Shown piece after piece: positions 48,122 through 52,758 of a DNA stretch of 64,000 nt. The DNA comes from Rubripirellula reticaptiva. GTDB taxonomy: Bacteria > Planctomycetota > Planctomycetia > Pirellulales > Pirellulaceae. The notes under the pieces are model-generated. The model was not told the origin of the DNA. It ran no database searches and was given only the letters and a program-made list of their open reading frames with translations. How positions within the stretch are numbered: the first letter of the stretch is position 1; the number at the start of each line of letters is the position of its first letter. The position numbers and the translations under genes are program-made. The DNA lies in NCBI RefSeq assembly GCF_007860175.1, contig NZ_SJPX01000001.1, positions 1,674,001 through 1,738,000 on the forward strand, written 5' to 3'.

Positions 48122-50569
48122 TTAGTTATCAATAAACACTTCGCTAGTGACGATCAGTTCAACCAAATTGTGCAAACCATCACCTTTTGCGGTAAGCTTG
48201 CCAACGATCGATTCGATCACTGGCCGGTCTTGGAAACCAACTTCTCGCCCTAGTGCGTAGGTGAGCATCTTTTCGGTCAGACAATGAGCGAACTGATCCT
48301 TTTGTTTTAAAAGCAATTGCTTGAGCTGGGCGATATCAGTAAACGATTCTCCCGTCGGCAAAGTTCCGGTGGTGTCCACCGCGCCAATGGGCTTTCCCTT
48401 GCTGTCATAATACTCGCGACGAAGCGAACCGATGGGATCGAAGCTTTCTAGAGCGAATCCGATCGGATCAATTTTGCGATGGCACTCGGCGCACGTGGCG
48501 ACATTACGATGCTTGGCAAGCTGTTGACGAATGGTGGTGGCGCCTCGGATATCCGGTTCCAGCGGCTCGACATCCGGCGGCGGTGGCGGAGGTGGTGAAC
48601 CGAGAATATTTTCCAGCACCCAGATGCCGCGAGTGACCGGCGAGGATTCGACTCCATTGGAAGTTGCTGTCAGCACACTCGCGTGACCGAGCAGCCCTCC
48701 GCGAAGCGAATTTTTCGGCAGTGAAATTCGCCTAAACTCGTCTCCCTCGATCGTGGGCAGACCGTAATGTGCGGCCAGATAGCGATTGGCGAACGTAAAG
48801 TCCGAATCAATGAAATGTTCAATGCTCAGGTTTTTATGCAGAACCTCTGCGAAGAACAGCTGGGTTTCCCGTCGCATCAACGGCTCAAGCTGTCGATCAT
48901 AGTAGGAAGTAAACTTTTGCGTGTCCGGCGGCATTGATCCGAGTTCATTCAGGTGCAGCCAACTGTTTGTGAAATTCACGATGAACGCTTCCGCTCGCGG
49001 GTCTTGCAACATGCGTCGCGTTTGAGCGAGCAGCGTCTCGGGTTCACGGAGCTTTCCGCTGGCAGCGGCGCGGAACAACTGGTCATCCGGCATCGAACTC
49101 CACAGAAAGTACGACAGGCGCGACGCGAGTCGGAACGCTTGATCGCCGCTTTCACCGGCATCAGGTGGAGTTTCCACGTACAGAAAATTCGGCGAACAGA
49201 GGATCGCTTTGCAAGTTGTCAGAAATGCGGTCTCTTCGGATTCGCCAGCGCCCATTCGTGACTGGCAGAAAGTCTGATACCGAGCGACTTCCGATTCCAA
49301 CGGTGGACGACGGAAAGCACCATATAGAAATGGTTCGAGTGACCGCTGGTGCTTGTCCGCCAATAAATCTGTCGTCGATTCGTCGCGTTGCTCCGGCCCG
49401 GCGATTTCCATTTGATGGATTCGCATGCGAGGCCCTTCGTAGGCGTCGGACATCCAGACGTCGAGAATCTCGGAAGGCTCCGTCGAGAAGACATCTTTCC
49501 AGTTGTTCGTCAACGTTTCGGGATGGTACTTTTGCACCAACTTCACCAAGGAAGTTCTGAAGTTCAGCGGCCCGTTGGCGTAGCGAATGACGGGCACAAA
49601 TCCTTTGTCCAGCCAAACTCGGAACTCGTACACCTTCGTCTGGTGATCGAGCAGCGGAACGGTAGCCACGACGCGGTCGGAAGAATTTTGCCCCGCCGCC
49701 GGACGAGCGACTTTGGGGTTGGTCGCAATGACTTGCATCTTGATCGGCTCGGTACGATCGACTTGCAAAGAATTGGGCGCGTAAGGATGCTCGCGGTTGA
49801 TCCCTTCTGCCTTGACGCGAATGGTGTAATGCCCGTCTGCCGGAACACCTTTGAATCGAGTGGCGTGGACCCGCGGTAGACTAGGATCGCTGTGGCCGAC
49901 GTCGACATAGTCGCCTGTTGGATTGACCTCAAAATAAACAAACGGACGGAATTGGTATTTGCGTTGGCACATATCCTGGGCTCGCAACAATTCGTTAATG
50001 GGGGCGACGACTGCTTGAGCCTGAACGGCTTTGTCGATGCTCTGCGAAGCCGCGTCTAGATAGCACTGCAACAGGTAGTCTGACAGAACCAAACTTTCGC
50101 CGATGTTGTCGAAACCGTCGACTCGATCGTCCGCTGGGAATGACGTGGTCGGATCGAACGAGTCCATGTTGACTCCAAGAAGATCGCGAATCGTTTTGCG
50201 GTACTCGTAGCGATTGAGCCTCCGGAATTGTTCATGACCACCCGATGCAAGGGCGTCGCGAGCCAGTTCGAGCTGACGTGAAACGGTGGCGACAAATCGC
50301 TTGGTCTCATCGGCCGAAGGTTGCGGCTCGTCCTCGGGAGGCATCTCGCCAAGATTGACGACGTCAAGAATTTCCTGCCACTGTTCCGCGATTTGATAGT
50401 CCGAAAGCTCAGCTTGCAACGTGTCGAATCGTCGATCCGCGTTCTGTTCCTCCACGCCGTGGCAGCGAATGCAGTGGTTTCGCAGGTAGGCCTTGGTGTC
50501 AAAGTCGTTATCGGCGGACAGGCACGTCGATGGGAAGAGCAACAGGATTATGAGGAAGATATTTTTCAT
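48122..50569 (-). CDS. DUF1592-family cytochrome (DUF1587/1592/1588/1585) protein
   Basis: 815 residues with a very short signal peptide (MKNIFLIILLLFPSTCLSA). Haem motif CIRCH at 33-37, then DUF1587 (FRRLNRYEYRKTIRDLLGV), DUF1595-like, DUF1592 (LASRLSYFLWSSMPDDQLF), DUF1588 (LRGGLLGHASVLTATSNG) with CAECHRKIDPIGFALE, and a C-terminal DUF1585 part. This multi-domain protein normally pairs with a DUF1552 gene, which is here displaced by a small cassette. It is exported and probably redox-active; the substrate is unknown. The first codons of the signal peptide (ATGAAAAAT) coincide with the end of one inverted repeat of the cassette. Confidence 0.92.
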   Translation of the reverse strand: MKNIFLIILLLFPSTCLSADNDFDTKAYLRNHCIRCHGVEEQNADRRFDTLQAELSDYQIAEQWQEILDVVNLGEMPPEDEPQPSADETKRFVATVSRQLELARDALASGGHEQFRRLNRYEYRKTIRDLLGVNMDSFDPTTSFPADDRVDGFDNIGESLVLSDYLLQCYLDAASQSIDKAVQAQAVVAPINELLRAQDMCQRKYQFRPFVYFEVNPTGDYVDVGHSDPSLPRVHATRFKGVPADGHYTIRVKAEGINREHPYAPNSLQVDRTEPIKMQVIATNPKVARPAAGQNSSDRVVATVPLLDHQTKVYEFRVWLDKGFVPVIRYANGPLNFRTSLVKLVQKYHPETLTNNWKDVFSTEPSEILDVWMSDAYEGPRMRIHQMEIAGPEQRDESTTDLLADKHQRSLEPFLYGAFRRPPLESEVARYQTFCQSRMGAGESEETAFLTTCKAILCSPNFLYVETPPDAGESGDQAFRLASRLSYFLWSSMPDDQLFRAAASGKLREPETLLAQTRRMLQDPRAEAFIVNFTNSWLHLNELGSMPPDTQKFTSYYDRQLEPLMRRETQLFFAEVLHKNLSIEHFIDSDFTFANRYLAAHYGLPTIEGDEFRRISLPKNSLRGGLLGHASVLTATSNGVESSPVTRGIWVLENILGSPPPPPPPDVEPLEPDIRGATTIRQQLAKHRNVATCAECHRKIDPIGFALESFDPIGSLRREYYDSKGKPIGAVDTTGTLPTGESFTDIAQLKQLLLKQKDQFAHCLTEKMLTYALGREVGFQDRPVIESIVGKLTAKGDGLHNLVELIVTSEVFIDN

Positions 50570-50601
50570 TAGTTATTTGATATTAGTCATTTGTCATTGG
50601 G
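50558..50601 (-). repeat. Left terminal inverted repeat, heptamer array
   Basis: Read on the minus strand, this is a run of near-7-base units (CCAATGA, CAAATGA, CTAATAT, CAAATAA, CTAATGA) ending in AAAAAT. It matches the right copy at about 50999-51045 with few differences. Its end overlaps the ATG of the DUF1592 gene. Confidence 0.7.
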
Positions 50602-50626
50602 CGAGTACTTGTCGGGGCGATGGTGA

Positions 50627-50989
50627 TTACGTTTGCTTGGCTGTCTTGATCGATGCGTTCAGGATTCGGCAGAGTTGTTGGTTTTCGTCAATCAGGTCGT
50701 TAAGCAATTTTGACGGCATGAGTTCGGCGCGAACGACCATTTTCAGCCAGACACAGCTTTCGTTGAGTTCCTTGAGCGCGATCCTCAGCTTGTGAATAAA
50801 ATCCGCGTTGCTTTCGGCTCCACGTGCTTCCGCGTAATTCGGTGCTGGTGAAGTGCCTGATCTCAATAACTGATTTGCAATGTGCTTTCCTGCGGGTGAC
50901 TTCGGCAACGCGTCAGCGACTCGAATCACTCGGACAGCAAAATCAATCAGCCGCTCTTCAATCTCATTCGCCTTCGCCGCATCCCCCAT
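50627..50989 (-). CDS. Four-helix-bundle protein (IVP / 23S rRNA intervening-sequence protein family)
   Basis: 120 residues, almost entirely helical. Family motifs: a first helix rich in Ile and Val (IDFAVRVIRVADALP), GKHIANQLLRSGTSPAPNYA, EARGAESNADFIHKLRIALK and ELNESCVWLKMVVRAELM. This family (Pfam-type S23/IVP) is the fold of the Avd accessory protein of diversity-generating retroelements and of proteins encoded in 23S rRNA intervening sequences. Such proteins form basic pentamers that bind nucleic acid. Here it is free-standing, outside rRNA, without a reverse transcriptase nearby. It has no signal peptide. It lies in a secreted-protein operon but is flanked by inverted repeats, so it probably arrived as a cassette. 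Confidence 0.85.
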   Translation of the reverse strand: MGDAAKANEIEERLIDFAVRVIRVADALPKSPAGKHIANQLLRSGTSPAPNYAEARGAESNADFIHKLRIALKELNESCVWLKMVVRAELMPSKLLNDLIDENQQLCRILNASIKTAKQT

Positions 50990-50998
50990 CGCCCCAGC

Positions 50999-51045
50999 CT
51001 CCCAAATGACAAATAACTAATCCCAAATAACAAATGAAAAATCTG
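50999..51045 (+). repeat. Right terminal inverted repeat, heptamer array
   Basis: Plus-strand copy of the repeat described for 50558-50601, reading CCCAAATGA, CAAATAA, CTAATCC, CAAATAA, CAAATGA, AAAAAT. It ends six to ten bases short of the stop codon of the DUF1552 gene. Confidence 0.7.
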
Positions 51046-51050
51046 TTTTT

Positions 51051-52322
51051 TTAGCGAAGCCCCGCAAGCGTACCGGTGCTGGTTCCGAAGCGATCGGATT
51101 CCACACCAAAACGCTGTAACATCGACAGGTACAAATTGCAGGCTGGCGTCTGCGGGCCTCCAGTTGCCGGGTACGCCTTGTGCTGGCCGTGCTCGAAGCC
51201 ACCACCAGCCAGCAGCAAAGGTAGCTTGCGATTGGAATGAGAACTCGCGTTGCCAAGACCACTTCCGAACAACACCATCGTTCGGTCCAGCAGCGATGCA
51301 TCCTCGGCAACCTGCGAACGCTTCAGGCCATCCAAAAACCTCGCGAGCTGCGAGGTGTGGAACTGTTCAATGACGCCGAGCTGCTGCAGCTTGGATTCAT
51401 CGCGACCGTGGTGCGAAAGGTCGTGATAACCCTTCGTGACACCCGAAAGCCCCGAGTCGCCTGTCCATCCGTGAATAGCCAGGGAAATCACGCGAGTCGA
51501 ATCGGTTTGCAATGCCAACTTCATCAGGTCGTAGAACAGCGCAACTTCTTCGGTGAAACTGGTCGGCAATTGTTTCGGCAACGTGTAGTTCGATGTTGGC
51601 TTCGGTTTGTTCAACCATACCTCCGATTGTTCCAATCGCTTTTCGACTTCGCGTATCGAAGTAAAGTACTCATCAAGTTTTGTCGAGTCACCGAGACTGA
51701 TTCGCTTTTCGAGCGCCGCCGCATCCTCACCAACGACATCCAGGATGCTGCGGTTGACGGCGAATGCACCAGCCTGTCGTTTCCGCTTTGATTGAGGTGT
51801 TTCCAAGAACAACGCATCGAACATGGTTTGCAGTCGCGTGATCGTTGGAATCTCGACACCGTTCCGCGTCCACGAAACGCCGCCACCGCCCAGCCCCACT
51901 TGGATGGATTGATATCGCGTCTGGGCACCGGCAAACTCAGCCGCCCGTTGATCGACGCTAACGTTGCCTTCGGGATATTGTTTCGCTTGATCCGATCGAA
52001 TGCCTGACAGAAACGTGTGCGTCGACTGATGCCCGCCCGTGACTCCTGGATGATCCAAGTCAGAGAAGACGGTGAAGTCGTTTTTTAACGCCGCCAACGG
52101 AGACAACAAGCGAGGCAACTCGTAGTCGCGACCGGTTTGCTTCGGAAAAAAGTCGTTCGGATAGAGCCCGTATTCAAGGCCGACGCAAACCATCCGCATC
52201 GGTGATCCTGCCGCGCCTTCTGCGGCCTCCGCGTATTTCGGTACCGCCAGGGACTCCAAGAACGGCAGAGCAACGACGGCTCCAGTTCCACGCAGCAATT
52301 GTCGTCGGTCGAGTCGATTCAT
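51051..52322 (-). CDS. DUF1552 family secreted protein
   Basis: 423 residues from the ATG at 52322; the open frame extends 45 codons further but the Tat-like leader LDRRQLLRGTGAVVALPFLE sits just after this ATG. The DUF1552 body has MVCVGLEYGLYPNDFFP, HPGVTGGHQSTHTFLSG, SVDQRAAEFAG and the C-terminal FGSGLGNASSHSNRKLPLLL with His/Asp-type metal candidates shared with DUF1501. It is exported and normally acts beside a DUF1592 protein. It is the most upstream gene of the long minus-strand run; 436 bases separate it from the divergent ECF operon. Confidence 0.93.
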   Translation of the reverse strand: MNRLDRRQLLRGTGAVVALPFLESLAVPKYAEAAEGAAGSPMRMVCVGLEYGLYPNDFFPKQTGRDYELPRLLSPLAALKNDFTVFSDLDHPGVTGGHQSTHTFLSGIRSDQAKQYPEGNVSVDQRAAEFAGAQTRYQSIQVGLGGGGVSWTRNGVEIPTITRLQTMFDALFLETPQSKRKRQAGAFAVNRSILDVVGEDAAALEKRISLGDSTKLDEYFTSIREVEKRLEQSEVWLNKPKPTSNYTLPKQLPTSFTEEVALFYDLMKLALQTDSTRVISLAIHGWTGDSGLSGVTKGYHDLSHHGRDESKLQQLGVIEQFHTSQLARFLDGLKRSQVAEDASLLDRTMVLFGSGLGNASSHSNRKLPLLLAGGGFEHGQHKAYPATGGPQTPACNLYLSMLQRFGVESDRFGTSTGTLAGLR

Positions 52323-52758
52323 CTTTCCATTCCCTGTGAATTGGTCATCCTGCGATTTTGTCGTCGTTGGGTGAGGATGCGAGCTATCCTCTCTCTCCCG
52401 GACCCTCGAAAGTTGGACAACCAACTTTGTGATTCTCGAAAAAGATTGAAATTTCACTTCTCGGGGTCGGTTGCGGAGTCAGGGCACAAGGGTTGTCACA
52501 ATCGCTGCTCACCAATTCCCAACCGCACTACCAAATACAAGTGCATTTGCATGGCTCAATCGATCCACTGCAGTTTCCGAATGTTTGGGTTAAGTTAACG
52601 TTGCTCGGTGAGAATCGACGGAGTACGGCAGCTGCGACCAAACATACGTACTCGCGAAAACTGGTGCATGTTGTCCGCGTTGAGAAATCTTCAGGGAATT
52701 TTGTCCCCAAACGTCCGTTTCGCGACAGTAAGGGTGTTGGAAATTTTTCAAATCCCAT
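52323..52758. promoter_or_regulatory. Divergent promoter between DUF1552 operon and ECF operon
   Basis: 436 bases with no supportable gene. It should hold promoters for both the long minus-strand run and the five-gene plus-strand operon, including any autoregulated ECF promoter. A GTTAAGTTAAC element lies near 52588-52598. I did not find a convincing pair of matching ECF boxes. Confidence 0.4.

Follow-up and report, generated by a model that had tools for sequence, protein, structure and literature searches.

Intervening sequences (IVSs) in the 23S ribosomal RNA (rRNA) of bacteria are described as selfish elements bounded by a hairpin, which carry a gene of the IVP family (PF05635/S23) and are excised by RNase III (PMC4990558). 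In Coxiella the IVS measures 428 nt; tandem heptamers adjoin the S23 gene, and RNase III cleaves this IVS in vitro (PMC4990558). Here we describe a free-standing IVP gene in a 64,000-nucleotide stretch of the Rubripirellula reticaptiva contig NZ_SJPX01000001.1 (the window). The gene sits between two protein genes in a 482-bp cassette bounded by inverted arrays of near-7-nt units. With a probability of roughly 0.6, this cassette is one member of a widespread group of small mobile elements that are free-standing relatives of the 23S rRNA IVS, and in which we infer the roles of the stem, the IVP protein and a helper.

The cassette shares with the rRNA IVSs of Leptospira, Coxiella and others the PF05635/S23 protein, a similar size, and terminal inverted repeats that form a stem around the open reading frame (ORF), here a predicted one. 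It differs in lying between protein genes (DUF1552 and DUF1592 in the window), with relatives dispersed over many sites, and in that matched heptamer arrays with locus-specific units are the common rule. RNase III excision is known for the rRNA form only, as described in PMC4990558. Two 23S motifs had no match in any IVP locus searched with them, so that the presence of heptamers in rRNA IVSs rests on the Coxiella paper.

Other systems share single features with the cassette. REP sequences are strongly conserved, and the RAYT (Y1) gene has cognate repeats nearby (PMC3116915). REPIN/RAYT systems and IVP cassettes both have short inverted repeats arranged as hairpins and a dispersed ORF-less form that shares its repeats with a gene-bearing locus (here in genomes G021 and G069). 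However, the cognate gene here is a PF05635 four-helix bundle with no known catalytic activity rather than a Y1 transposase. There is no conserved REP motif, the repeats are 7-nt tandem arrays, and the gene itself is inside the hairpin. The Avd protein of diversity-generating retroelements resembles PF05635, with a structural alignment to 2GSC (PMC10053308), whereas the cassette lacks a reverse transcriptase, for which its 482 bp leave no space besides the IVP ORF, and has neither a template repeat nor a variable repeat. Miniature inverted-repeat transposable elements (MITEs) and insertion sequences with terminal inverted repeats also have exact inverted ends, and like such MITEs the cassette has no transposase inside. 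The cassettes differ from these in having terminal sequence common only to close relatives, no target duplication at four sites, and a sense bias.

The STRR repeats of cyanobacteria are heptanucleotide repeats. In the P6b stem of the Nostoc trnL intron (classes I/II), paired 7-nt motifs vary in number and are replaced wholesale, and their origin is given as unknown (PMC4476775). TAACTGA repeats with a period of 7 nt are reported from Beggiatoaceae (PMC4679880). Both have the 7-nt period of the cassettes, and P6b pairs as an RNA hairpin; the portions of those accounts available link no IVP gene to the repeats, and the link proposed below is our own. No description of matched heptamer arrays around free-standing IVP genes was found among the matches listed in the open-licence PMC literature (titles and starts of abstracts).

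The cassette in the window

The cassette comprises an IVP gene between inverted repeats of about 39 nt made of near-7-mers. Its features and neighbours are given below in window positions.

50561..51042, minus strand: whole IVP cassette, 482 bp; homology to the cassettes of three further sites breaks off sharply at its ends, as judged by eye; absent at the orthologous junction of genome G001
51002..51042, minus strand: 5' arm (left in element orientation), near-7-mers ATTTTTC ATTTGTT ATTTGGG ATTAGTT ATTTGTC ATTTGG; inverted repeat, base-paired to the 3' arm when the transcript is folded in silico
50561..50599, minus strand: 3' arm, near-7-mers CAATGAC AAATGAC TAATATC AAATAAC TAATGAA AAAT, the last 9 nt being DUF1592 codons 1-3; inverted repeat, predicted fold and end alignment
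50627..50989, minus strand: IVP gene, 120-aa four-helix bundle (PF05635 / TIGR02436); open frame and profile matches
51051..52457, minus strand: upstream neighbour, DUF1552 (HXXSHH) gene; ORF and domain match; stop codon 8 nt from the cassette
48122..50569, minus strand: downstream neighbour, DUF1592/PSD gene (DUF1592/1588/1585/1587/1595); domain matches; start codon 50567-50569 within the cassette end

The encoded protein matches PF05635 (E 3.9e-18) and TIGR02436 (E 1.5e-26), and its solved homologues, 2GSC and 2RLD, each have five chains. The inverted arms, aligned over 50556-50601 and 51002-51047, are 46 nt long, 85% complementary and 400 nt apart; the longest other inverted pair in the same kilobase, unrelated to the arms, has 16 nt at 75%. 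Inverted alignment of the cassette flanks scores 34, against a maximum of 24 in 125 control pairs of distant flanks. The arms are degenerate, with 20/28 matches at lag 7, one below the threshold of 21 used for arrays. The 3' arm passes at lag 14, and this array (50557-50598) is the only one in the window when lags 4, 5, 7, 8, 10, 11, 13 and 14 are scanned.

The ends were defined by eye from an alignment of the window cassette with loci L122, L022 and L416 (the last from G021) and an ORF-less hairpin, L391. The proteins of L122 (same class) and L022 (same genus) are 80% and 74% identical to that of the window, and the DNA homology is confined to the cassette. In the five sequences the 3' arm is alike up to a terminal AAAT, after which homology is lost, and the onset of the 5' arm is equally sharp. 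Three other, unrelated sites hold cassettes with like ends, and this places the ends of the window cassette at 50561 and 51042. No protein match at E 1e-3 is common to the flanks of the four cassettes, and no direct duplication is visible beside any of them.

The last nine bases of the cassette, ATGAAAAAT, are the first codons of DUF1592. L416 ends in GAAAAAT, as the window cassette does, and the other aligned elements end in GACAAAT; the start codon thus arrives with the cassette. In G001, the nearest relative (DUF1552 match 91% identical, with one in-frame TAG), DUF1552 and DUF1592 overlap with neither insert nor repeats. This empty site is not base-exact because the DUF1592 start region differs there.

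The first-pass annotation had described an IVP gene with inverted near-7-mer arms that splits DUF1592 from DUF1552, and the arms, the domain matches, the flank score and the joined genes of G001 bear this out. Its ends, 50558 and 51045, were close and have been refined by the alignment above. It was also right that one repeat supplies the DUF1592 start, since the cassette end AATGAAAAAT includes that codon, that the other repeat adjoins the DUF1552 stop, and that no transposase gene lies inside. The particular heptamers CAAATGA and CTAATGA are not a genome-wide signature: an 18-base pattern from the window matches once in genome G000. The constant features are structural, namely period 7, matched arms and a C-poor inward strand.

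Heptamer arms at other IVP genes

A set of 185 IVP loci was gathered through the protein, never through the repeats. It contains 34 loci from G000 and its relatives, the best 80 named loci (cyanobacteria, proteobacteria, Bacteroidota, Bacillota, Chloroflexota, Acidobacteriota, Planctomycetota and others), 30 among the matches listed for the class, 39 from further searches and 2 from plasmids. Removal of 11 duplicates and 6 loci with short flanks left 168 distinct loci. A contig end truncates at least four of these (L143, L196, L198, L212), which puts their coordinates off; they count as misses. An array was called at 21 or more matches in 28 at a given lag; near flanks lie within 200 nt of the protein match and far flanks 1.1-1.3 kb away.

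Arrays of lag 7 are present in 155/336 near flanks and 5/312 far flanks. The multiples follow (lag 14, 76 near and 1 far; lag 21, 38 and 2), and other periods are rare (lag 8, 14 and 0; lag 6, 4 and 1). At least one flank is arrayed in 108 of the 168 loci and both are in 56. When the flanks were aligned in inverted orientation, 104 of 143 loci scored above the 99% control value and 71 above the control maximum. Among 12 loci new to the analysis, 10 reached an inverted score of at least 17, and the four IVP loci fetched from G069 all have inverted arrayed arms, one of them with period 8. An IVP gene held between two inverted arrays, with a unit of 7 nt as a rule, is the common arrangement.

A clade in the genus of the window (L003, L019, L020, L032) has 6-nt-like units such as GTGCTC and GAGTAC, and L415 has 8-nt units; the period itself therefore differs between cassettes. 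Decayed IVP copies with in-frame stops (L022, L023, L020, L120) point to gene turnover, and in some of them the heptamer arms are still recognisable. Long frames (up to 889 codons) at 12 loci had raised the possibility of IVP fused in frame to host proteins; by eye they look like chance frames in GC-rich DNA that contain the IVP start, and this candidate was rejected.

The two arms of a locus match in their unit. In the 85 loci with both arms arrayed at 19/28 or better, the left unit and the reverse complement of the right unit differ by at most one mismatch in 67, as against 3.7% when arms are compared across loci. The mean distance between arms is 1.01, and 3.24 on re-pairing; the lowest of 5000 permutations was 2.93. 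The same holds at a single junction: the arms of 14 representatives at nuoC/nuoD, with units such as TGAATGG, GGCAGTC, GCGAATA and GTAGTGA, match to a degree reached in 0/20000 permutations. The six IVP loci of G000 have different units. At non-homologous sites the unit follows the protein. Above 70% protein identity (32 pairs) the mean unit distance is 1.5, and 53% of pairs have units within one mismatch; below 35% or unaligned (4014 pairs) the values are 3.45 and 1.5%. Because the arms match within a locus and like proteins have like units, the unit moves along with its cassette, and its drift affects the two arms jointly. The arms of one locus thus change together as the unit drifts over time.

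Read inward, the left-arm units contain 41% G and 10% C, against 28% of each in far flanks. A role of the heptamers as a supply of stops in three frames was rejected: stop trinucleotides, at 50 of 104, are in no excess over the 47 +- 4 obtained when letters are shuffled within units. The Mesorhizobium unit TGAATGG equals the stop plus start of the empty nuoC/nuoD junction of L228; other units at that junction do not fit, and this may be coincidence. IVP genes sometimes stand a few kb apart (G028:C70:34908 and 37419, with differing units; G193:C2:1277476, 1280852 and 1285497; G000:C6:198064 and 209927).

Gene junctions, empty sites and ORF-less hairpins

Cassettes of the same build, individual in their repeat sequence, occur between genes across many bacterial groups. 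On crude gene calls, most are in sense orientation and occupy the stretch from one stop codon to the next start codon where both genes run the same way. Relative to IVP, the neighbours of 161 loci are ++ in 107, -- in 12, +- in 28 and -+ in 14 (p 3e-20 for 107 vs 12). In 60 of the 78 ++ loci with strong repeats, no more than 30 nt separate the left arm from the upstream stop; for the right arm and the downstream start this is so in 44. The median cassette length is 480 nt in the 54 loci that are tight on both sides. Junctions that could be named by Pfam include nuoC/nuoD (L112, L138), sdhA/sdhB (L098), carA/carB (L095), yicC/gmk (L058, L073), an enoyl-CoA hydratase-type gene with thiolase (L103), and a peptidyl-arginine-deiminase-type gene with CN-hydrolase (L101). 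Five loci (L008, L039, L047, L051, L079) have common flanking homologues that by eye resemble DNA methylase genes (translated CGSG motif), a possible intragenic hot spot.

The nuoC/nuoD junction was surveyed in the genus Mesorhizobium (locus L112, genome G276). A nuoD match was obtained in 97/99 genomes and 70 junctions were fetched, of which 59 were readable by pattern and 11 were not. Among the 59, 38 are empty (0 to 9 nt from stop to start), 20 are filled by IVP and one (L223, genome G542) has another insert of about 600 nt with no recognisable IVP gene. Of the filled junctions in this genus, 8 belong to an IVP type with the unit TGAATGG and 12 to a second type whose units are GTAGTGA-like. 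The nuoC/nuoD junction of G101, a genome from the order of the window, also holds a class-B IVP (L138), which is split from the others by a branch support of 99 in a FastTree tree of 171 rows and few columns. Because there are two IVP types in one genus and a separate class-B IVP, insertion at this junction has happened more than once. The L112 protein has a patchy distribution, with relatives in 16/199 genomes of its order. At L112, L194, L202 and L046, inspection by eye suggests a small extra hairpin (e.g. TCGCC..GGCGA) after the right arm and before the nuoD start codon.

A search of phages with one IVP query protein gave no match. One IVP protein matched 32 plasmid records, mostly from cyanobacteria, and the four plasmid regions inspected contained no filled/empty pair.

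Heptamer hairpins also occur without the gene. G021 has window-like units in ORF-less hairpins at C307 (two), C273 and C13, in single arms at C7, and in the IVP cassette at C302; a 130-nt hairpin at C307 has a fold z of -8.6. In G069 one ORF-less hairpin and one IVP cassette have the common unit GGGATGA. ORF-less hairpins carrying the unit of an IVP cassette were found in these two genomes only. On G001 C11 there is a single arm with no inverted partner. At L391:3066-3268 (G021:C307) more than 20 near-perfect TTAGTCA units stand without a partner arm of like length. Per 400 kb sampled, inverted heptamer pairs numbered 5 in G069 (8 IVP-profile matches), 0 in G000 (6 IVP genes), 0 in G089 and 1 in G127; the last two have no match to the IVP profile of this analysis, and PF05635 itself was not run on either. 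Away from the IVP genes in the collected loci, 45 lag-7 arrays were counted in 593 kb, as against 3, 1, 1 and 0 for lags 8, 10, 11 and 5, although further IVP genes may lie near some of them.

Predicted stem and competing explanations

In predicted folds, 145 of 168 elements and 69 of 168 controls have their outermost 130-nt stretches linked by 15 or more pairs, with medians of 43 and 11 pairs. The window cassette folds at a predicted -161.6 kcal/mol (z -3.87) with its arms paired. In a polycistronic transcript the two arms would form a single long stem that loops out the ORF. The C-poor inward strand would limit pairing within one arm and favour the partner some 400 nt away. The stem would probably shield the insert from the cistrons on either side or set it apart from them, and RNase III may cut it, by analogy with the rRNA version. 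Joint change of the arms could come from slippage and template switching between them, or from selection for pairing. The IVP protein, related to Avd and from a family with pentameric solved members, probably binds the hairpin as RNA or single-stranded DNA and aids spread or maintenance, possibly acting in trans on ORF-less hairpins of the same unit. The strand-cutting or copying enzyme would come from the host or from some other element. Sequence-specific transposition is unlikely, since only close relatives have end sequences in common and no duplication is visible.

Several observations weigh against this account. The inverted-flank score does not exceed the 99% control value in 39/143 loci, lag-7 arrays at 19/28 or better are on both sides in only 85/168, and some IVP genes (e.g. 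L017, L018, L378, L379) have nearly no repeat signal. The heptamers are not exclusive to IVP genes, because far flanks of IVP contigs also carry them; G127, with no IVP-profile match, has one ORF-less hairpin in its 400 kb, and G000, with six IVP genes, has none. The overall fold energy is below that of a neighbouring control stretch in only 42/168 elements, and formation and cleavage of an mRNA stem are predicted or borrowed from rRNA. The strand-specific composition of the arms could equally mean a protein that reads DNA inward from both ends. Neighbour orientation was taken from crude longest-ORF calls, in which some GC-rich neighbours are misread.

Helper genes were compared in 248 genomes of the class, 118 with an IVP-profile match and 130 without (sizes known for 241). 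One alternative, which we consider unlikely, is a hairpin element of single-stranded DNA that a Y1/HUH transposase of the IS200/IS605 or REP-associated type mobilises in trans. IVP would be a passenger or co-factor, the arms DNA hairpins and the ORF-less copies REPIN-like. The hairpin ends, the four compared sites without target duplication and the ORF-less hairpins alongside IVP cassettes fit such an element. Y1_Tnp is indeed present in 112/118 IVP genomes and 99/130 others (p 2.7e-5), but in genomes of at least 5.5 Mb the contrast shrinks to 93/98 against 74/84 (p 0.11). A Y1 match is lacking in six IVP genomes (G029, with 4 IVP genes, G078, G100, G130, G253 and G273), and the elements have no common terminal motif, whereas REP sequences are described as strongly conserved (PMC3116915).

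Retro-mobility, in which IVP acts like Avd and binds the transcript hairpin, a host reverse transcriptase copies it, and the copy re-enters at nicked or transcribed junctions, seems improbable to us. Avd and PF05635 are treated as related in PMC10053308, and sense orientation with a predicted transcript stem would fit an RNA intermediate. However, reverse transcriptase (PF00078) is no commoner in IVP genomes (91/118 vs 96/130, p 0.56), and we reject it as an obligate partner. It has no match in 27 IVP genomes, including G209 (7 IVP matches) and G101 (5), where insertion may predate its loss.

The first-pass annotation suggested a non-autonomous element. A classic MITE would be a non-autonomous DNA transposon with terminal inverted repeats whose sequence a transposase, lost or unlinked, recognises. 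Inverted repeats at the exact ends, dispersed cassettes and the absence of an internal transposase gene speak for it, but the terminal sequence varies from element to element even within a single junction, the ends consist of 7-nt tandem units, no duplication is seen at four sites and the sense bias is strong, all of which make this very improbable. As far as sequence comparison goes, the window element appears to be mobile and not a classic MITE. What stands of the first-pass interpretation is a free-standing mobile cassette placed at gene junctions: like cassettes occupy unrelated sites, empty sites exist in G001 and Mesorhizobium, and inverted heptamers flank many other IVP genes. The outcomes it had named as speaking against mobility, repeats missing beside other IVP genes or every relative filled with unrelated flanks, were not observed. 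An ordinary, vertically inherited operon gene with slippage-prone regulatory repeats would account for the junctions common within lineages (nuoC/nuoD, sdhA/sdhB), but is already contradicted by the filled and empty nuoC/nuoD junctions (20/59 filled), the patchy L112 relatives (16/199), the comparison of ends at four sites, like cassettes at unrelated sites and unrelated IVP types at one junction.

The relationship to the rRNA IVSs can be taken further, tentatively and at somewhat less than even odds. IVP cassettes would be a distinct class of mobile element that recognises shape and not sequence. The shape would be a hairpin with 7-nt periodicity; concerted change would keep its two arms alike as their sequence drifts, and IVP would act on such hairpins in trans. 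Scattered heptanucleotide hairpins, including the cyanobacterial repeats and the P6b stem of the trnL intron, would then be ORF-less descendants, and the 23S rRNA IVSs would be the rRNA-inserted branch of an element that inserts into mRNA.

IVP proteins are common and annotated ('four helix bundle protein', 'S23 ribosomal protein'), yet unexplained. The cassettes provide a case of two repeat arrays, 400 nt apart, that change sequence jointly. If the interpretation given here is true, many IVP proteins belong to one class of element that spreads between genes in many bacterial phyla. The role of IVP would become directly testable through the heptamer hairpin, and heptanucleotide repeats so far described without an origin would be offered one.

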